The notes: generated by a model not told the origin, from the sequence alone. A DNA stretch of 64,000 nucleotides from Nitrospirota bacterium (GCA_021828375.1 JAKARS010000004.1:1-64000); one strand, 5' to 3'; positions 23,351-33,146 are shown, counted from the stretch's first letter. Translations and numbers: made by a program.

Positions 23351-24250
23351 TTGAAAGATCTCAAACTCTATCCGGCTCTCGCCCTTTTTTTTCTTTCCCT
23401 GATCTGGGGCTACAATTGGGTCGTCATGAAGGGGGCGCTGGCAGACTGTCCTCCGCTCCTCTTTGCCGCCCTCCGTGTCTTGGGAGGAGCGGTCGTTCTC
23501 TTTGCCATCCTGAGGGCCATGGGGCGCCCTCTGAGGATGCCTCCATTGAGGTATGTCTTTCCGTTGGGGCTTCTTCAGTCGACAGGATTTGTCGGGTGTA
23601 CCCTTTGGGCGCTGGAGTATGGCTCCGCGGGTAAAACGGCTATTCTCGTCTATATGATGCCAATTTGGCTTGTTCTTCTCTCCTCTGTCTTTCTCGGGGA
23701 GAGAATTCGGGGACTGGAAAAGCCGGCTCTGGGCCTGTCTCTTGTGGGCCTTCTTCTCATTCTGGACCCGCTGAACATAAAGGGAGGAACAGGACTCCTT
23801 CTGGCAGTTCTTTCGGGGATTTTCTGAGCCCTTTCAGCTGTTTGGCAAAAACGGTTCGGATCACCCGCCTTTGACATTCTTGATGTCACGGCCTGGCAAA
23901 TGGTCCTGGGAGGGGTCGTCATCTTGGGATTGGCGCTCCTCGTCGATCCCTGGTCAATTCACTGGACGACCGGCCTGACCTTGGCACTCCTTTATAATGC
24001 GGTGCCGGGAAATGCGCTGGCCTGGATACTTTGGGCCTATGCCCTCCATCGCCTTCCCTCCGGCGTCGCCGGTATGGGAACTCTTCTTGCTCCGGCCGTG
24101 GGAATTCTGGCCTCATGGGGCCAATTGGGGGAACGGCCGGATTGGCTGGAGGGAAGCGGTATGACCCTGATCTTTGTCTCGATGGCTCTTGTGATTGCCG
24201 AGCACATGAGGGACCATGAGACAATCGAATTTTCTGAGGCCCAGGAGTGA
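23351..24250 (+). pseudogene. EamA/DMT-family transporter interrupted by one in-frame TGA
   Basis: Two ORFs (23351-23827 and 23900-24250) lie in the same frame and together make one normal EamA protein of about 300 residues and ten membrane helices. The first half begins LYPALALFFLSLIWGYNWVVMKGA. The halves join as SGIF-stop-ALSAVWQKRF, where family members usually have Trp-Ala. TGG to TGA is a single base change. No indel is seen and both sides read cleanly, so the mutation is recent, or it is a sequencing error. If real, only a five-helix half protein would be made. The substrate is unknown (the family includes amino acid and metabolite exporters). Confidence 0.8.
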
Positions 24251-24437: not shown

Positions 24438-25295
24438 TTGACAATCTCCGGGAGCCCAAGATTTTTGCAGGGAGTCAGGATCTATTCCCTCATCAACCTC
24501 CTTCTCTCTGCCATGATGGCGCTCGTCGCGCATCCCCGACTCTCGACTCCGCTTTTTGAGTTTCCCCTTTTGGCCATTCTCCATCTTCTTGTCCTGGGAG
24601 GAATCCTTCCCCTTCTGATGATCCGCTGGCTTGAATTCTCCCTCCATCTGCGGCTCGGGCTGGCCTTTACGCAGGCGGGAGCCGCTGTCCTGGTCGTGGG
24701 TTTTCTTCTTCATCCACGATCAGCCCTTCCCATGGAGGGAGGTCTCCTCGTGGCCGCAGGGATCCTTCTTGCCATGCTGTCCCTTCCTTGGACCCATCGT
24801 TCTTTTCGGTTCTGGTTTTTTCTTTGGTCGTCCGCGGTTTTCGGTGTTTACCTGGGAGGGGTTTTGGCCCGACCTGTCGTTGATCCGATTCCCTTTAGCG
24901 CGATTGCCGTTCATGCCCTGCTTGGGGGCGGACTGGGTCTCTTCTCGCTGGGATGGCTTCGCCGGGAAGGACCCCGATATCCCCTGTGGGAGGCTGCCTC
25001 TTTGCTCCTCATGATTGTGGGGGTGGGGCTGGTTTTACAGAGGACATTGTTGAATGGAACGATGGTTTTTCTGGTGGCGGGAGCCTTTGTGATTTTGCTG
25101 GAGGGAGTGAGCTTCCGGGGCCGTCTTCTCTCCATGGTTCTTTCCGGGGTGTGTGTGCTGGGCGGTGTTCGGGGATGGTTTCTTCCGGGAGAGTGGATCT
25201 CTGCGCTGGCAGGATCCTTTGTTCTCGGAGGGCTTGCGGGGCTTATTGGTGGTGCTAGGCCCCTGCCGTCACGACCGTCGGCTCTTTTTCCGTAA
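24438..25295 (+). CDS. Polytopic membrane protein of unknown function
   Basis: The 285-residue protein consists almost entirely of hydrophobic segments, about ten, such as FPLLAILHLLVLGGILPLLMI and AIAVHALLGGGLGLFSLGWL, with several histidines at helix ends. This recalls NnrS or heme-copper-related membrane proteins, but no diagnostic motif is present. The TTG start at 24438 is uncertain; a TTG at 24465 is also possible. Its 3' end overlaps the convergent AAA+ gene by 41 bases. Confidence 0.65.
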   Translation: MTISGSPRFLQGVRIYSLINLLLSAMMALVAHPRLSTPLFEFPLLAILHLLVLGGILPLLMIRWLEFSLHLRLGLAFTQAGAAVLVVGFLLHPRSALPMEGGLLVAAGILLAMLSLPWTHRSFRFWFFLWSSAVFGVYLGGVLARPVVDPIPFSAIAVHALLGGGLGLFSLGWLRREGPRYPLWEAASLLLMIVGVGLVLQRTLLNGTMVFLVAGAFVILLEGVSFRGRLLSMVLSGVCVLGGVRGWFLPGEWISALAGSFVLGGLAGLIGGARPLPSRPSALFP

Positions 25296-28200
25296 CGACA
25301 GGCGCTCCTTCGGTGAGCTGGATCTGATTGTCCACGATTCCGATGCGGAGGGAGCTCTCCGGCGTCAGGGTGGATGCCGCATTGTCGAGGGACTTCAGTG
25401 CGGGGAGAAGAAGGGACTGGACCTTTCTCTGAAGCTGGGGAAGGGTCACCAGAGTCGGGTCAAGTTGAAAGGCGATGAAGGCGGGGACCTCCGGGTCGAT
25501 GTCGAGAACGCCTTTCATGGGGTGACCCTTGATGTAGGAGACCATGGTTTCGTAAACCGTTCTTCGGGCCATATCGATCAGGTCGGCATCGGTGTAGGTC
25601 GGGAACGGGACGATCAGGTCGAGAGTGTTCAGAAGCTCTCTCCCAAAGACGGGCAGGAAGGAGAGTCGGCCGTTCTTTTCTCCCAGTCTTTCGAGGATCA
25701 TTGCCGCGCGGTTGCCGCCTTTCAATTCTTCCATTTCGTCCCCCGAAAAGAGACTTGTGGAAAGGATGAGGGTGCTTTTGGGAACTGCGAGCCGTTTCTT
25801 GCCATTGGAGATGGTCCCGTCGGTCACATATTCCATCAGGAAGTCCCAGGCCGAAGGATGAGCCTGTTCGATATTGTCCAGGAAAAGCACAGAATCGGGG
25901 CGTTCCTCGAGAACGGTATGGATTCCCACCGGAAGCGGACTTTGGGCCGTTGACCCCAGGGGGCGCTGGAGGAGCATGCTGGCAAAGAGACGATCGGAAT
26001 AGAGCCCCATATCCCGAACCACCAGAGAGGGCTTTTCCGGGTCGAGATAGTGGGCCACCGCCCGGGCCGCCTCGAGCTTTCCTGTTCCCCGGGGCCCCGC
26101 AAAGAGAAAGGCCCCGAGAAGCCCGGAGCCGCCTTTCTTGATGCCATATTTCCCCGCCTCGAGAACCGAACGGACTTCCATCTGGATATCCTGTCTCCCC
26201 GGATAGCCCGGGAGGGCTTCAGCGAGAGGTTCAGGCATAAGAAGATGAAGGCTGCCGGCTTGCTCTTCGGCGCCTTCCGGGGCGGAGTCGCCTGAGGCGG
26301 CCTCCTCTGTGTGATCAAACTCGGCAAAGTTGATTTTGTCGGGATCGATCCCTTCAAGGATTTTGCCCAAGGCAAACTCTTCAAGTTCAGAGAAAAGGGA
26401 TCGGCCGAGCTCGGCCAAATCGAGGACCGAGGCAAAACGTCGGGCAATAAAAGGATCAATCTTGTTGACATCATCGGCCCCGCCGATCAGCCAGATATTC
26501 TTGTCCTCATTGGCTTGTGAGATTTCCATGACCTTCTGGTTGTAGAGCTCTCCGTGATATCCATAATTCGAGAGCTGAACCTTGGGAAAAAGCTCTTCGA
26601 CGGGATCAACAAAAATCGTTGACGGACGATGCTTCCTTGCCCGGAGGAGAAGGTTTCTGAATTCATTCCCGTCGAGGCGCTTCTCGTCCGAGGTCGTCAT
26701 GAAGCTGTAGCTGACCAGCTCGGAGAGGCGCATGGCGATTTGGCGGCGAATGCTCCGATTGCGACCGATGATCAGGATGGATTCATGAGACTTCTTCTGG
26801 CGATTGGAGAAGAGCTCGCTGGTCCGGTGGATGATGAAGGGGGCCATCGTCTCGTCGGTGAGTCGGGCCCGGACCCTTTCCATGGGGCCCGCGGTCGGAT
26901 CCTTCCAGTTTTGAGCCTTTCTTCGGATGGAAACATCGATGTCGAGCTGACGGAGAGACCGGCGAAGCTTTTGGGCATAGTCGGAGCTGTGGAGGACGAC
27001 TTCCCGAATGTCCTCCGCCGTGAATCCTTCCATCAGGGCTGAAAGCTTTCCCAAGTCAAAGCCCTGAACCATCTCGACGGTGAGGAGGGGGACATTGCCC
27101 GGGAGAAGCTCATTCTTTTTGGCTTCCTCCATCAGAAATCGTCCCAAAAGAGTCTTTCTCATCTCGAAGTCCGGCATTGGAATGGGAATGATCCAGTTGA
27201 TGATGGGGGGGGAGATGAAGAACTTGGGAAGGTCATCGGTCTTGTCGGCGGAGGCGATCAGAAGATGGGTCCTGTTTTTTGCCATTCTGGTCAGGAACGT
27301 CTGAACATTATGAAGACCTTGAGGATTTCCCTGAATTCCCCGGATGAAATTTCCGTAGTTCTCAATATAGATGATCAGGGGATTGAAGGGTTTGATCTTG
27401 AAAAGAAATCCCTTCCAATGATTTTCAAAGGTCTGGGAGTCCACGGTCAGCAAGGAGTCGAGAGAGAGGTTGAAGAGGGGGCGCTTGTATTCGCCGGCCA
27501 AGGCGCGCGCCATGATCGTTCGGCCGACCGAAGAGGATCCTGTCAACAGGATGCCGTTGGGAGCGGACCCCACACCCTTTTGGGCATTGGTGACCTGATA
27601 GAGGATCTGGGCCATCTCCGATTTGATCTCGGGGTTTCCCGCAATTTGGCTAAAATCCTCCGAAGGAACAAGAAGATTGGTCTTGGTGGTCTGGTGTTCC
27701 TCGTCGGAGATGCCCATTCGAAACAGTGCGACGAGCGAGAGAATTGTTGCCCCCAGCAGCCATCCCGCCCCTGTGCCCATGCTGATGAGGGAGACCATTC
27801 CCGAGGTGTTGCTCACCGTGGCTCCGGAGATCAGAAAGAAGCCTCCATAGATAATCGCCGAGGTCCAGAAGTAGATCGCTTTGGGCGCCATCCGGACCGG
27901 ATTGGGCTTGAAGATGATTTCTCCTTCGGCATTCTCCGAGTGAACCTGTGAGGGAATGAGAAGGAAGCAGAGGGAGGCAAGAAGCGTGACACCTCCAAGG
28001 ATCCAGAGCGACAGGGAGAGCGACCCTGGATCAGACCGGAAGGCAAAGCCGGCCAGCATGGCCGAAAGCCCGATAAAGCTCCAGATGGCAACAAAGGAAA
28101 AGGAGGGGGGAGGAATTCCCCGGGAAGACTTTTTCTTCCCTTTTCGCGACAGATAGGGGCGTCCGAGATTGCGTCCGATCCCTCCAAGGACGATGGCGTG

Positions 28201-28338
28201 GAGAAGAAGGACCAGAAGGATGACAAGGCTGGCCATGAGAGGCATCTGGGCATAGAGGGGATCGATCTCGTGGCGGAAGAAGAGCGCGGCGGAGACCCAG
28301 GAAAGCCCGACCAGCATGATGATGATCGGCTGGATCAT
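25255..28338 (-). CDS. Membrane-anchored protein with three degenerate AAA+ modules
   Basis: This 1027-residue protein has about six membrane segments (roughly 1-21, 33-53, 82-101, 109-128, 156-172, 185-207) and then three AAA+-like modules. Module 1 (about 228-475) is FtsH-like, but its P loop is GSSSVGRT (Lys to Arg) and its Walker B reads LIIYIEN rather than DE. Module 2 (about 520-645) has only traces (LIIGRNRSIRR, STIFVDPVEELF). Module 3 (about 710-980) follows the ClpB D2 plan (LFAGPRGTGKLEAARAVA, VLFLDNIEQAHPSAWDFLM). There the P-loop Thr is Leu754+1, Walker B Glu is Asn822, and the arginine-finger segment reads LLNTLD instead of the usual FINRID. ATP hydrolysis therefore looks lost in all three, although module 3 may still bind nucleotide. 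Its ATG overlaps the uvrC stop. Function is unknown; a membrane scaffold or partner of an active AAA+ protein is a guess. Confidence 0.8.
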   Translation of the reverse strand: MIQPIIIMLVGLSWVSAALFFRHEIDPLYAQMPLMASLVILLVLLLHAIVLGGIGRNLGRPYLSRKGKKKSSRGIPPPSFSFVAIWSFIGLSAMLAGFAFRSDPGSLSLSLWILGGVTLLASLCFLLIPSQVHSENAEGEIIFKPNPVRMAPKAIYFWTSAIIYGGFFLISGATVSNTSGMVSLISMGTGAGWLLGATILSLVALFRMGISDEEHQTTKTNLLVPSEDFSQIAGNPEIKSEMAQILYQVTNAQKGVGSAPNGILLTGSSSVGRTIMARALAGEYKRPLFNLSLDSLLTVDSQTFENHWKGFLFKIKPFNPLIIYIENYGNFIRGIQGNPQGLHNVQTFLTRMAKNRTHLLIASADKTDDLPKFFISPPIINWIIPIPMPDFEMRKTLLGRFLMEEAKKNELLPGNVPLLTVEMVQGFDLGKLSALMEGFTAEDIREVVLHSSDYAQKLRRSLRQLDIDVSIRRKAQNWKDPTAGPMERVRARLTDETMAPFIIHRTSELFSNRQKKSHESILIIGRNRSIRRQIAMRLSELVSYSFMTTSDEKRLDGNEFRNLLLRARKHRPSTIFVDPVEELFPKVQLSNYGYHGELYNQKVMEISQANEDKNIWLIGGADDVNKIDPFIARRFASVLDLAELGRSLFSELEEFALGKILEGIDPDKINFAEFDHTEEAASGDSAPEGAEEQAGSLHLLMPEPLAEALPGYPGRQDIQMEVRSVLEAGKYGIKKGGSGLLGAFLFAGPRGTGKLEAARAVAHYLDPEKPSLVVRDMGLYSDRLFASMLLQRPLGSTAQSPLPVGIHTVLEERPDSVLFLDNIEQAHPSAWDFLMEYVTDGTISNGKKRLAVPKSTLILSTSLFSGDEMEELKGGNRAAMILERLGEKNGRLSFLPVFGRELLNTLDLIVPFPTYTDADLIDMARRTVYETMVSYIKGHPMKGVLDIDPEVPAFIAFQLDPTLVTLPQLQRKVQSLLLPALKSLDNAASTLTPESSLRIGIVDNQIQLTEGAPVVTEKEPTVVTAGA

Positions 28339-30203
28339 CGGTCATCCTCCTTGGACGTTCCGGGAGACGGCCCTCCAGAAAGATGTTCGGAGATCCGCCG
28401 GGCCAGGGAGGCAGGAAGTCCCCCTTCGCGGGCGATTCTTTCGGGGCCCGCGGATTTGAGTTCTTCCACCGATCCGAAGGTCAGGAGCAGCTGTTTCTCT
28501 CGGGAGGGGCCTATGCCCGGGATATCCAGAAGTCGAGAGTGGGTCAAAGCTTCCTCCCGAAGCTTTCGGTGGTAGGTAATGGCAAACCGGTGGGCCTCGT
28601 CCCGGACCCTCATCAGCAGGTGCGTTGCCGGCCGGTGCGGGGGAAGAATCAGGGGGGAGTCGAACTCGGGAGAGACGAGTCGCTCGAGGTGACCAGTGCG
28701 GCTTCGCTCCTTGGCGATTCCCATGACCTGTTTGGGGAGTGGCGCTTTGCCGATCTGGTGGAGGGCGGCCAGTGCGGCCCTGAGCTGCGGCTCTCCGCCG
28801 TCGATGAGCAGAAGGTCGGGCAAGGGGCGCTCGTCGAAATGACGGGAGAGAACCTCGGCCAGCATCCGAAAGTCATCCTGCCCCCGGTCGTACCGGATCC
28901 GAAATCTTCGGTAGAGAGACTTTTCAGGGAGACCATCGACAAAGACGACCAGGGAGGCGACGGGAAAGGAGTCTCCGGTATTCGAGATGTCCACGCAGCC
29001 AATGCTGGCGGGAGCTTGTTCAAGACCAAGCATCTCGCGAACCTCTTCGAGGGCCTGCCGAAGATCGGACTGGCTCTTTCCGCGTTCTTTCAGGGAGGCC
29101 CGGGCATTGTTTTGCGCGAGTTCGACCACGGTCTTCTTTTCTCCTCGCCGGGGGTGGGTAACGATGACCTTTCCACCTTTCTTTTCGGACATCCACTCGA
29201 GGTTCATGAGGGCTTCATGGGTCAGGGGATGGGAGAGAAGGATCTCCTCCGGAAGTGCCGTTGTCTCCTGGGAGTAATGCTGTTCGAGAAAGGCCATGAG
29301 AAGGTCGTCAGGGCTGTCCTGGTCGAAGTTTCTGATATGGACCTCCCGTCGCCCGGCGATACGTCCGTTTCGGACAGAGAGGAGTTCGATCTGCGCGGAG
29401 CCTTCGTCTGTCTCGACAGCGACGGCATCCACCGCGGAAGAAATCCGAAATTCGACGGTTTGACGCTCAAGGATGGTCCGAATGCTCTCGAGTCGGTGCT
29501 TGGCCTTGGCCGCTTTTTCGAACTCTAGATTTTTGGCATGGCGAACCATTTCATTGTGGAGAAGGGTCTCGAGGTCGCTGTTCTTGCCTTCAAGAAAGAG
29601 TCGGACGCCATCGGCCATCCTGCGGTATTCCTCCCGGGTGACAAGTCCGGCGCAGGGTCCCATGCAACGGCCGATCTGGTATTCAATGCAGGGGCGATCG
29701 ATCGTTTTTCCCAGGTCGAGGCTGCATGTGGCCAGCGGAAAGATCCGGGAGATGGATCCGAGGGTTTCCCGGAGGGCGCCGGGATTGGCGTAGGGGCCAA
29801 AGGTCAGATCGGGGCTTCGGGACACCCTGCGTGTGACCGAGAGCCTCGGGAAGTCTTCAGACCAGGAAAAGCGGAGATAAGGGTAGGTCTTGTCATCGCG
29901 AAAGAGCACGTTGAAACGTGGCCGGTATTTCTTGATGAGGGTATTTTCGAGAATAAGGGCGTCGAGCTCGCTTCGGGTCACCAGTGTTTCAATGTTTGCA
30001 ACCCGTTCGGTCATTTTCCGGATGCGTGGGGAGGTGGGGCGGGTCTTCTGGAAGTAGGAGCGTACCCGATCCTTGAGGCATTTGGATTTTCCGACATAGA
30101 GAACCTCTCCCTTGTCGTCCTTCATGAGGTAGACTCCCGGCGAGTCGGGCAAAAGCCGAAGCTTTTCCTCTAGCCGAAGAGGTGTCTGTTTGCCCTCGTC
30201 CAT
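28335..30203 (-). CDS. uvrC: UvrABC excinuclease subunit C
   Basis: UvrC makes both incisions around DNA lesions in nucleotide excision repair. The 622-residue protein has the N-terminal GIY-YIG nuclease (GVYLMKDDKGEVLYVGKSK), an UVR motif (LLHNEMVRHAKNLEFEKAAK) and the RNase H-like UvrC domain (GCVDISNTGDSFPVASLVVF, LLLIDGGEPQL). C-terminal helix-hairpin-helix repeats follow (LLDIPGIGPSREKQLLLTF). It is followed with a 4-base overlap by the pseudo-AAA+ gene, which is an unusual partner. Confidence 0.96.
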   Translation of the reverse strand: MDEGKQTPLRLEEKLRLLPDSPGVYLMKDDKGEVLYVGKSKCLKDRVRSYFQKTRPTSPRIRKMTERVANIETLVTRSELDALILENTLIKKYRPRFNVLFRDDKTYPYLRFSWSEDFPRLSVTRRVSRSPDLTFGPYANPGALRETLGSISRIFPLATCSLDLGKTIDRPCIEYQIGRCMGPCAGLVTREEYRRMADGVRLFLEGKNSDLETLLHNEMVRHAKNLEFEKAAKAKHRLESIRTILERQTVEFRISSAVDAVAVETDEGSAQIELLSVRNGRIAGRREVHIRNFDQDSPDDLLMAFLEQHYSQETTALPEEILLSHPLTHEALMNLEWMSEKKGGKVIVTHPRRGEKKTVVELAQNNARASLKERGKSQSDLRQALEEVREMLGLEQAPASIGCVDISNTGDSFPVASLVVFVDGLPEKSLYRRFRIRYDRGQDDFRMLAEVLSRHFDERPLPDLLLIDGGEPQLRAALAALHQIGKAPLPKQVMGIAKERSRTGHLERLVSPEFDSPLILPPHRPATHLLMRVRDEAHRFAITYHRKLREEALTHSRLLDIPGIGPSREKQLLLTFGSVEELKSAGPERIAREGGLPASLARRISEHLSGGPSPGTSKEDDR

Positions 30204-30372
30204 GAAGGAACCCCCAAGTGAGCGGTTGTCGGATGATTGTCGCCTCTCCTATAATCAAAGAGAAGAAGACCCCAATCCTTTCCGGAGGAAACGGAAGAGA
30301 CATTCATTCTTTGTCTCCACCTGCTTTCTCATTGTATCATGGCATTTTTACAGGGTAAGGAGGCAACACACC

Positions 30373-30642
30373 ATGGCTTCCAATCAGGAGGATCCGCCAC
30401 GGGAGACACACTCCGACGCGAATCATGAGGAGGACGATCCGGCCCCGCTTCTCTCTGAGCCCATCACCTCCAAGGAGTGGTGGGGGCTCGTCCGATACTT
30501 CTTGGGGGGGCTGGCCGTTGCCCTGTTCTTTTTCTTTATGATGGCCAACGGTCCCAAGGGAGTTCTCGCGGGAGGAACAGCTCTTCTGGCGGGTTTGCTG
30601 GTCTGGCTCGTCTACCGGTTCGTTTTTCGATCGGATGAGTGA
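30373..30642 (+). CDS. Small two-helix membrane protein
   Basis: ATG 30373 (AAGGAGG 6-7 bases upstream) codes 89 residues. An acidic N terminus of about 40 residues is followed by two membrane segments (YFLGGLAVALFFFFMMA and GVLAGGTALLAGLLVWLVYRF). The ORF-track version beginning at 30190 would run antisense through the uvrC start and lacks support. I do not recognise the family; AtpI-like or YggT-like small membrane proteins look similar only in size. It is divergent from uvrC and convergent with ftsY. Confidence 0.65.
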   Translation: MASNQEDPPRETHSDANHEEDDPAPLLSEPITSKEWWGLVRYFLGGLAVALFFFFMMANGPKGVLAGGTALLAGLLVWLVYRFVFRSDE

Positions 30643-30659
30643 CGGGGAAGAGAAGGCTT

Positions 30660-31574
30660 TCAGCTGGTTCGAAGGATCGACCGAACAAAGGTTGACGGGT
30701 CGAAGGGGAGAAGATCATCGGTCTTTTCTCCCACGCCAATGAATCGGACGGGGATCTGGTGGCGGCGCGCCAGCGCGATGACCACCCCGCCTCGGGACGT
30801 GCCGTCGAGCTTGGTGAGGATGAGTCCTGAAACCGGCGCGATCTTGACGAATTCGTCAAGTTGGGAAAGGGCATTCTGGCCGATGGTTGCATCGAGGACG
30901 AGCCAGACCTCGACGGGAGAGTCCGGGGCCTCCCGGCTGATGATCGCCCCAATTTTCCTGAGCTCATTCATCAGGTTTTGCTTGTTCTGGAGCCTTCCCG
31001 CCGTGTCGATGATGGCCATATCGATCCCCCGGGCCCGGGCGGCCCTGACGGTATCGAAGGCGACGGAGGCCGGATCGGCTCCGGGTTTCTGATGGACAAC
31101 GGGGACATCGAGGCGCTCTCCCCATTTTCGAAGCTGCTCGATCGCCGCCGCACGGAAGGTGTCGGCGGCCCCGAGGATGACGGAATTTCCTGCATCCCTG
31201 AATCGGGCGGCAAGCTTGCCGGCGGTTGTCGTCTTTCCGACGCCGTTGACTCCCACAAGGAGAACCACCATGGGGGATTTGCGGGGAGAGAACTCCTCCC
31301 AAGGGGTGGGGGAGGGGAAAATTTCTGTCAGGGACCGCTCAAGGTGGGCCAGGCTCTCTTCGGAGGTGGCTCCGGGATTCTTTTTTTCCCAGGCCTTCAG
31401 TTCCTCGACGATTTCCTTCGAGACTACGGGACCAACATCGGCAGTGATCAGGATTTCTTCGAGCTCCTGATAAAATCCGGGATCTCGCCGGTTGAAGACC
31501 GATTCGATCGACCGTGCGACCTTGTCCCGGGTTTTTTGAAGCCCCTCCCTGATTTTGTCAAAAAATCCCATCAA
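30660..31574 (-). CDS. ftsY: Signal recognition particle receptor FtsY
   Basis: FtsY is the SRP receptor GTPase for co-translational membrane insertion. The NG domain is complete: G1 VGVNGVGKTTT, GAADTFRAAA, DTAGRLQNKQNLM, LTKLDGTSRGG, and FIGVGEKTDDLLPF. At 304 residues it lacks the long acidic A domain of E. coli FtsY, as in many phyla. It leads on, with a 4-base overlap on the map, to ybeY upstream in the same transcript. Confidence 0.97.
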   Translation of the reverse strand: MMGFFDKIREGLQKTRDKVARSIESVFNRRDPGFYQELEEILITADVGPVVSKEIVEELKAWEKKNPGATSEESLAHLERSLTEIFPSPTPWEEFSPRKSPMVVLLVGVNGVGKTTTAGKLAARFRDAGNSVILGAADTFRAAAIEQLRKWGERLDVPVVHQKPGADPASVAFDTVRAARARGIDMAIIDTAGRLQNKQNLMNELRKIGAIISREAPDSPVEVWLVLDATIGQNALSQLDEFVKIAPVSGLILTKLDGTSRGGVVIALARRHQIPVRFIGVGEKTDDLLPFDPSTFVRSILRTS

Positions 31575-32113
31575 GACATCCCCTTGCGGCCTTGTGCCAC
31601 TCTTTTCCTGTCAGATGGATCAATGTCCCCTGTCCCTTCCGGGATCTTTCCGGTGATTCCCTCGCCCCCTTGTCCTTCTTTTCGCCGGATGTGACGGGCG
31701 ATCTTTTCTTCTTCGGCCTTCATGATCCGCTGATCTTCTTCCCCTCTCTCATGGTCAAATCCCAGAAGATGGCAGACTCCGTGGATCAGGAGATTTGAGA
31801 GCTCGTCCTCAGGAGAGAGACCGGCTGTCATGGCCTGGCGATGGGCCCGAGGGACGGAGATCACGATCTCTCCGAGAAAACGAGGCATTCGAGGGGGAGA
31901 ACCCGGGGGACCTTCAAAGGAGAGAACATCGGTGGTGGAAGCCTTTCCCCGATAGGTGCGGTTCAGTTCGCGCATCCTTTTGTCATTGACCAGGACAAGG
32001 GAGAGGTCACAGTGGTCTTGGCCCACGGCTTCCAGGGCGAGTCGGGCGTGTCGATGAAGTCGTTCGGTGTCCACGGGAAGGGCTCGTTGCAACGAGAGGA
32101 TCTCAATCGACAT
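31571..32113 (-). CDS. ybeY: Endoribonuclease YbeY, rRNA maturation factor
   Basis: YbeY is a zinc-dependent RNase in 16S rRNA 3'-end maturation and ribosome quality control. The zinc motif HGVCHLLGFDHERGEED and the upstream FLGEIVIS are clear. From ATG 32113 (MSIEILSLQRALPVD) the protein has 180 residues with an extra basic C-terminal tail of about 35. The ORF-track start at 32260 lies inside phoH and adds a Pro-rich N terminus; I reject it. The order phoH-ybeY is conserved widely. Confidence 0.93.
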   Translation of the reverse strand: MSIEILSLQRALPVDTERLHRHARLALEAVGQDHCDLSLVLVNDKRMRELNRTYRGKASTTDVLSFEGPPGSPPRMPRFLGEIVISVPRAHRQAMTAGLSPEDELSNLLIHGVCHLLGFDHERGEEDQRIMKAEEEKIARHIRRKEGQGGEGITGKIPEGTGDIDPSDRKRVAQGRKGMS

Positions 32114-32120
32114 GGGGGCC

Positions 32121-33146
32121 TCAGGATGTCTTGCGGGGAGGTCGTGACCGCTTTTCTGAGGCATTCTGGGTCCGGGGGGCGGGGGAGGGCTTGGAGGCTT
32201 CATAGCGTTCGTAGGCCTTGACGATTTCCATGACAAGGCGATGGCGAACAACATCGACATCGGAAAAGAAGGTGAAGGAGATGCCTTCGATTCCCTTCAG
32301 CACCTCCTGGGCTTCGAGCAATCCGCTGTAGCGATCCTGGGGGAGGTCGATCTGGGTTGTGTCCCCTGTGATGATGGCCTTGGAGTTGAAGCCGATGCGC
32401 GTGAGGAACATTTTCATCTGCTCGACGGTGGCATTCTGGGCCTCGTCCAAAATGACAAAGGAGTCGTTGAGGGTTCTCCCCCGCATGAAGGCCAACGGAG
32501 CGATCTCGATTTCCCGGCGCTCCATCATCCGGTTGACCTTTTCCACATCGATCATATCGAAGAGGGCGTCATAGAGGGGGCGCAGATAGGGGTTGATCTT
32601 TTCGGCAATGTCTCCCGGAAGGAATCCCAGCCGTTCTCCTGCCTCGACAGCCGGACGAACCAAGATAATCCGGCGGAACGAGCCCTTCAGGAGATGGTGG
32701 ACGGCCAGGGCGACGGCCAAGTAGGTTTTGCCTGTTCCGGCCGGCCCGATTCCAAAGACAATATCCTTGGTCTTCATGGCACGGATGTACTCCAGCTGGT
32801 GGAGGGATTTGGGAAAGATCACCCGCTTTTTGCTGTTGATCGGCACATACTCCGAAAGCAGATCCTTGAGAGAGATGTGGGGAGAGTTTCGGGAGACCGA
32901 GATGGCCTGTCGGATCTCTTCTTCGCGGATGGAGTAGCCTGCCGCCATCAGGGACGTCAGGTCATCGATGACGCGGGATCCCTGGCGAACGGCCTCTTCC
33001 TCTCCTACCATCGTCAACACCGGTCCATTCACGGAAATCCGGAGCCCGAAAGCCTCTTCAAAGAGATGAATGTGCCGGTTCATCTCTCCAAGAAAGCTGG
33101 CGGTATCGAGATTCGGAGGGAGGTCGAGGTTCTGTCGGATGGCCAT
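32121..33146 (-). CDS. phoH: PhoH-like ATPase
   Basis: The 341-residue protein has a KH-like N-terminal part and a P-loop ATPase core with GPAGTGKTYLAVALAVHHLL, Walker B FVILDEAQNATVEQM, and the conserved GFLPGDIAEKINPYLRPLYD and TGDTTQIDLP. PhoH proteins of this type (PhoL/YbeZ) act with YbeY in RNA processing. The gene lies 7 bases before ybeY, which supports that role. Its start overlaps the stop of the UspA gene. Confidence 0.95.
   Translation of the reverse strand: MAIRQNLDLPPNLDTASFLGEMNRHIHLFEEAFGLRISVNGPVLTMVGEEEAVRQGSRVIDDLTSLMAAGYSIREEEIRQAISVSRNSPHISLKDLLSEYVPINSKKRVIFPKSLHQLEYIRAMKTKDIVFGIGPAGTGKTYLAVALAVHHLLKGSFRRIILVRPAVEAGERLGFLPGDIAEKINPYLRPLYDALFDMIDVEKVNRMMERREIEIAPLAFMRGRTLNDSFVILDEAQNATVEQMKMFLTRIGFNSKAIITGDTTQIDLPQDRYSGLLEAQEVLKGIEGISFTFFSDVDVVRHRLVMEIVKAYERYEASKPSPAPRTQNASEKRSRPPRKTS

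Follow-up and report, generated by a model that had tools for sequence, protein, structure and literature searches.

A Conserved Membrane Protein with Three Degenerate AAA+ Modules Encoded next to uvrC in a Single Class of Nitrospirota

Introduction

As a rule, pseudo-AAA+ domains occur as inactive modules or subunits alongside active ones. A gene in a 64,000-nucleotide stretch of DNA from a Nitrospirota bacterium (GCA_021828375.1, JAKARS010000004.1:1-64000; hereafter the window) was predicted to encode a membrane protein with three AAA+ modules, all with altered key residues. Is this gene real and maintained, and what could a membrane protein do with three such modules? In this study, the gene, its distribution, the relationships of each module, and the state of each active site were investigated.

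Results and Discussion

Gene and Genomic Context

The gene occupies 25255–28338 of the window on the minus strand, stop codon included, and encodes 1027 amino acids; the open reading frame agrees with orthologues in 21/21 genomes of the class. The original prediction gave no strand for this interval, and coding on the plus strand was ruled out by stops in that strand.

The uvrC gene (28335–30203, minus strand) lies upstream, and the predicted stop/start overlap is real, with ATGA common to both genes. uvrC directly adjoined the gene in all 10 loci checked, from five genera. In nine of these loci, the two genes either overlap by 4 or 1 nt or are separated by 2 nt; in the tenth, the overlap is about 64 nt if the only nearby in-frame ATG is used. 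Farther upstream were ftsY, ybeY, phoH, a usp-like gene, and a prepilin peptidase gene (neighbor names were assigned by reading translations, not by family search). The overlap had been regarded as odd for such a protein; it is instead a class-wide operon arrangement within the phoH-ybeY-ftsY-uvrC cluster. In L074, an L. ferrooxidans-like locus of another genus, thiC and metH-like genes follow, as they do in L075.

This constant linkage might suggest that the protein anchors nucleotide excision repair to the membrane by retaining UvrC or damaged DNA there. Such a role is barely credible: the cluster also contains phoH, ybeY, and ftsY, and elsewhere pgpH, aroE, thiC, and metH, which are unrelated housekeeping genes; UvrC of other bacteria functions without such a partner; and no DNA-binding domain was found by Pfam. 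Linkage to uvrC need not imply a role in DNA repair. Since the cluster is a housekeeping one, co-translation with uvrC would point to constitutive production more than to repair.

Gene order around the cluster was also compared. Relative to 28338–33146 of the window (minus strand), L074 has pgpH between phoH and ybeY and, on the opposite strand, aroE between ftsY and uvrC; both genes are absent from those places in the window. Extra spacing similar to that of L074 was seen in L075–L077 and L079. At 24438–25295 (plus strand), a gene for a multi-helix membrane protein is convergent with the pseudo-AAA+ gene and shares about 40 bases with its 3′ end; it adjoins the gene in four more same-genus loci (L080–L083) and not in the other genera examined. 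An EamA/DMT-type transporter gene at 23351–24250 (plus strand) has one in-frame stop at 23825–23827, after which the frame resumes to 24250, and could be a pseudogene or carry a recent mutation or an assembly error.

Distribution of the Gene

Orthologues were present as single copies in all 21 genomes of the class (five genera, one family), down to 33% identity, and two of them were split between contigs. The class is believed to be Leptospirillia, and the lineage is taken to be that of Leptospirillum, iron oxidizers of acid mine drainage. Profiles of module 2 and the membrane domain were searched in 296 genomes of the phylum, and no orthologue was found in the approximately 275 genomes outside the class, where these profiles gave one weak generic AAA match and one spurious short match. 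The sole weak membrane-profile match in the phylum, in genome G217, was a 77-amino-acid frame with a stop and was dismissed. The full profile was searched in 118 genomes and, outside the class, matched ordinary AAA+ proteins over one module only. An intact homologue elsewhere in the phylum was rejected, as the outside matches cover one module and resemble ordinary ClpB, ClpC, or FtsH. The closest named records in a single-protein scan, which reaches near relatives only, were Nitrospirae MAGs, with UBA4572, at 97%, among them. No viral carriers of the gene were found.

The original prediction knew of no described family with this architecture, and no end-to-end match was obtained in PDB sequences or in Pfam, NCBIfam, or PADLOC. 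No paper describing the protein was found within the literature that could be searched. Anti-phage defense (IetA in PADLOC) found no support: the AAA matches were weak and generic (E 4e-7), the neighbors have housekeeping functions, and no genome of the class lacks the gene.

Membrane Domain and Structural Model

The N-terminal membrane domain (residues 1–209; 27712–28338, minus strand) has six predicted helices and no database match. The structure was simulated by AlphaFold2 with a 20-sequence alignment of orthologues as input. The model had a mean pLDDT of 73.9 and showed six long N-terminal helices followed by three α/β modules. The helices were predicted at residues 2–31, 33–59, 80–99, 105–126, 154–177, and 180–209, in agreement with the approximately six membrane segments of the original prediction. 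The pTM of the full-length model was 0.37; by these two scores, the fold of each module is credible as modeled and the mutual arrangement of the modules is not. A Foldseek search with the whole model matched ClpC, ClpB, and Hsp104 chains with E down to 4e-21, and the TM-scores were low because the modules were not superposed as one body. The membrane part alone gave no significant or convincing match by sequence or fold (Pfam, PDB sequences, and fold search).

If the Lys/Arg-rich loop 60–79 is cytoplasmic, as the positive-inside rule suggests, loop 127–153 and the C-terminal modules would be cytoplasmic as well. Since both loops and the modules would then lie on the cytoplasmic side, almost nothing would be left in the periplasm, unlike in FtsH.

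Identification of the Three Modules

Module 1 (residues 218–482; 26893–27687, minus strand) is a degenerate classical AAA module of the Cdc48/FtsH type. It matched Pfam AAA and solved AAA structures. As a profile, it matched p97/Cdc48 with E 8.5e-27; the similarity between the FtsH model and the single sequence was weaker (E 3e-9). The module had been called FtsH-like, and the FtsH model was indeed matched, but Cdc48/p97 D2 is at least equally close. Motifs were placed by eye on HMMER alignments; for modules 1 and 2, the placement of the arginine-finger segment is less certain. The Walker A position reads GSSSVGRT (27517–27540, minus strand), with Lys in 0/20 aligned orthologues, and the Walker B position reads LIIYIENYG (27352–27378, minus strand), with the catalytic Glu in 0/20. 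An Asp lies close to the Glu position in seven of the 20, and the active-site motif varies freely from genus to genus.

Module 2 (residues 483–690; 26269–26892, minus strand) is a strongly diverged classical AAA module. It had been described as barely recognizable, and alone it matched Pfam AAA only weakly (E 7.9e-5, above the curated cut-off); it was recovered with profiles. The profile matched p97-type chains with E 3e-11, summed over two stretches, and profile–profile comparison with module 1 by hhalign gave E 1.8e-5 and a probability of 78%. Its likeness to module 3 was not significant. At the Walker A position, IGRNRSIRRQIA (26734–26769, minus strand), Arg531 is invariant (20/20 in the orthologue alignment) where Lys is expected. 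At Walker B, D-P replaces D-E in every aligned orthologue.

Invariant residues are clustered in two blocks. Conservation peaks at residues 578–608 (26515–26607, minus strand), which run from the Walker B remnant of module 2 into the following motif, DPVEELFPKVQLSNYGYHGELYNQKVMEISQ; 21/31 positions are invariant. The linker motif joining modules 1 and 2 (residues 460–490; 26869–26961, minus strand) has 18/31 invariant positions. The maximum in 1000 shuffles was 14, so both blocks are invariant beyond chance. The conserved residues of module 2 may be structural.

Module 3 (residues 700–1005; 25324–26241, minus strand) is a degenerate module of the ClpB/ClpC-D2 type. Its match to the second module of ClpB/ClpC (E 2e-25) bears out the predicted ClpB-D2 likeness. 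The Walker A motif, GPRGTGKLE (26071–26097, minus strand), keeps Lys in 19/20 orthologues, the remaining one having Arg, and has lost the next Ser/Thr in 20/20. The Walker B motif, VLFLDNIEQAHPSAWD (25843–25890, minus strand), keeps Asp in 20/20 and has Asn in place of Glu, likewise in 20/20. In the arginine-finger segment (25603–25647, minus strand), Arg is missing at the corresponding column in all 20. Since the Walker A Lys and the Walker B Asp are kept and the change of Glu to Asn is invariant, nucleotide binding at module 3 is plausible.

This pattern raises the possibility of a nucleotide-controlled switch, in which the ATP/ADP state of module 3 governs partner binding via modules 1 and 2 and no mechanical work is done. 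The kept Lys and Asp with an invariant Asn in place of the catalytic Glu resemble AAA+ mutants that bind but do not hydrolyze nucleotide. However, the magnesium-holding Ser/Thr after the Lys is lost throughout, the Lys itself is Arg in one orthologue, and the arginine finger is absent. A switch is improbable.

Loss of Active Sites and Selection on the Gene

Catalytic residues were absent at all three sites in 20/20 aligned orthologues from five genera, and all the motif changes first quoted were located at the positions given for them. The arginine finger of modules 1 and 2 was not found in the orthologue alignment. By the original prediction's own account, homologues whose Walker A/B motifs are intact at the corresponding alignment positions would speak against it, and none occurred among the 20 aligned orthologues. 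In the same genome, FtsH is intact (GPPGTGKT/IIFIDE), and so are two Clp ATPases (GPTGVGKT/VILLDE or VILFDE). The altered motifs are thus neither a sequencing error nor a habit of the whole lineage. The aromatic pore loops of this genome's FtsH and Clp proteins (FVG and GYVG) were absent at the matching positions of the protein. As judged from the motifs, the three modules decay differently and are not equally dead.

An active but unconventional ATPase with substituted residues was also considered. Migrated catalytic residues are possible in some pseudoenzymes, a point made in general terms in one source (PMC10211241), and half of the site is kept in module 3. Against this, the residues of the module 1 site differ freely from genus to genus, the P-loop Lys is missing from module 2 and the arginine finger from module 3, and the pore loops are lost. 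This explanation is very improbable. Still, calls of pseudo-ATPase from motifs can be wrong, and the Asp near the module 1 Glu position in seven orthologues and the Lys and Asp kept in module 3 are cases in point.

The dN/dS of the whole gene was 0.063–0.104 in seven pairs (Nei–Gojobori). By region, dN/dS was 0.03–0.13 and below 0.14 in every region. Some dS values were near saturation, but the two least diverged pairs, with dS of about 0.23–0.24, gave 0.07 and 0.08. The gene is under strong purifying selection. The low dN/dS and the clustered invariant residues indicate that the protein is maintained and not decaying. An assembly artefact or pseudogene was ruled out by the low dN/dS and the presence of the gene in 21 genomes of the class.

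Comparison with Known Systems

As in FtsH, a classical AAA module comes after a membrane anchor, and module 1 matches the FtsH model. The protein differs in having six helices where FtsH has two, no sizeable periplasmic domain expected, two further modules, and damage to the pore loop and to both Walker motifs (A and B). An FtsH-type zinc metalloprotease domain (HEXXH) was not found: there was no Pfam peptidase match, and AAA modules fill the rest of the chain. The FtsH equivalog model gave 36 bits against a cut-off of 600, and intact Walker A and B, as in FtsH, were seen in 0/20 orthologues. Likeness to Cdc48/p97 lies in two tandem classical AAA modules, and modules 1 and 2 match p97-type chains best; the protein differs in its membrane anchor, its degenerate sites, and a third module of ClpB type, and no Cdc48 N domain was found. 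The Cdc48 subfamily model TIGR01243 gave 31.6 bits against a cut-off of 802, and the active-site motifs are absent. Module 3 can be aligned with ClpB/ClpC D2 over most of its length, but it has lost the Ser/Thr, Glu, Arg finger, and GYVG pore loop, and neither the Clp N domain nor the first Clp module is present in the protein. The ClpB model gave 61 bits against a cut-off of 1232, with module 3 alone matching. In having an AAA+ fold whose catalytic residues are consistently lost, the protein agrees with the functional class of pseudo-AAA+ proteins.

In chloroplasts, FtsH12 and inactive FtsHi proteins form a membrane complex, in which Ycf2 is included in some studies (PMC8042743). FtsH-type membrane proteins there are reported to have lost activity and yet to be kept and needed (PMC8042743; PMC8197885). 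By analogy, these inactive FtsH relatives with FtsH12 are the nearest working parallel, likened at the level of the AAA fold: FtsHi and Ycf2 are plastid proteins of other architecture with no ClpB-type module. EccC/EssC of type VII secretion has domains of FtsK/HerA type, not AAA+ of Cdc48/Clp type. Like the present protein, it combines several ATPase domains in one membrane protein, and at least one of its domains is described as degenerated (PMC11154593).

The same chloroplast complex provides a precedent (PMC8042743) for a regulatory subunit that co-assembles with active FtsH, ClpB, or ClpC, either contributing inactive positions or tethering the machine to the membrane. The types that modules 1 and 3 resemble are precisely FtsH/Cdc48 and ClpB/ClpC, and the genome has the intact FtsH and two Clp ATPases. 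However, no ftsH, clpB, or clpC was among the neighbors in the loci read, and module 3 lacks the arginine finger that would complete a neighbor's site, nor was one located in module 1 or module 2. Co-assembly is possible but unlikely. Replacement of HflK/HflC as FtsH regulator was rejected, since true HflC is rare throughout the phylum sample and its absence is not class-specific. In that sample, HflC exceeded the curated cut-off in a single family, one outside the class; only weaker SPFH relatives were present in class members, and none in some genomes.

Proposed Role

With no intact Walker motifs in the same columns among the 20 aligned orthologues and no described family matching end to end in the collections searched, a pseudo-ATPase is the best reading of the motifs. 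The original prediction of a pseudo-ATPase scaffold or adaptor holds in this part; it needs correction in that the modules are not equally dead, and the scaffold or adaptor role is a proposed one. The family is real, conserved, and apparently undescribed, and three modules from two clades in one membrane protein is an unusual extent of such change.

The preferred explanation, on which our confidence is evenly divided, is an undescribed, class-specific inner-membrane pseudo-AAA+ protein acting as a non-hydrolyzing, non-threading membrane scaffold that holds partners via residues 578–608 and 460–490. The six-helix anchor would be the membrane base for the cytoplasmic modules, which would assemble as a ring or stack without ATP hydrolysis and without substrate threading. 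The module 2 block and the linker would be the working surface for partner proteins. Perhaps the scaffold contains one site that binds but does not hydrolyze: module 3 may hold a static nucleotide without turnover that stabilizes or switches the assembly.

More tentatively, and with some doubt on our part, a class-defining membrane complex may be built on this triple pseudo-AAA+ chain as a permanent, ATP-independent inner-membrane ring or switch. It would then be, maybe, the first bacterial case of three fused, all-inactive AAA+ modules from two clades in one membrane protein. All three modules are altered, each differently, and kept class-wide, which provides a natural test of AAA+ domain function in the absence of hydrolysis. 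For the presumed Leptospirillum lineage, the protein is a conserved membrane component without an assigned role.
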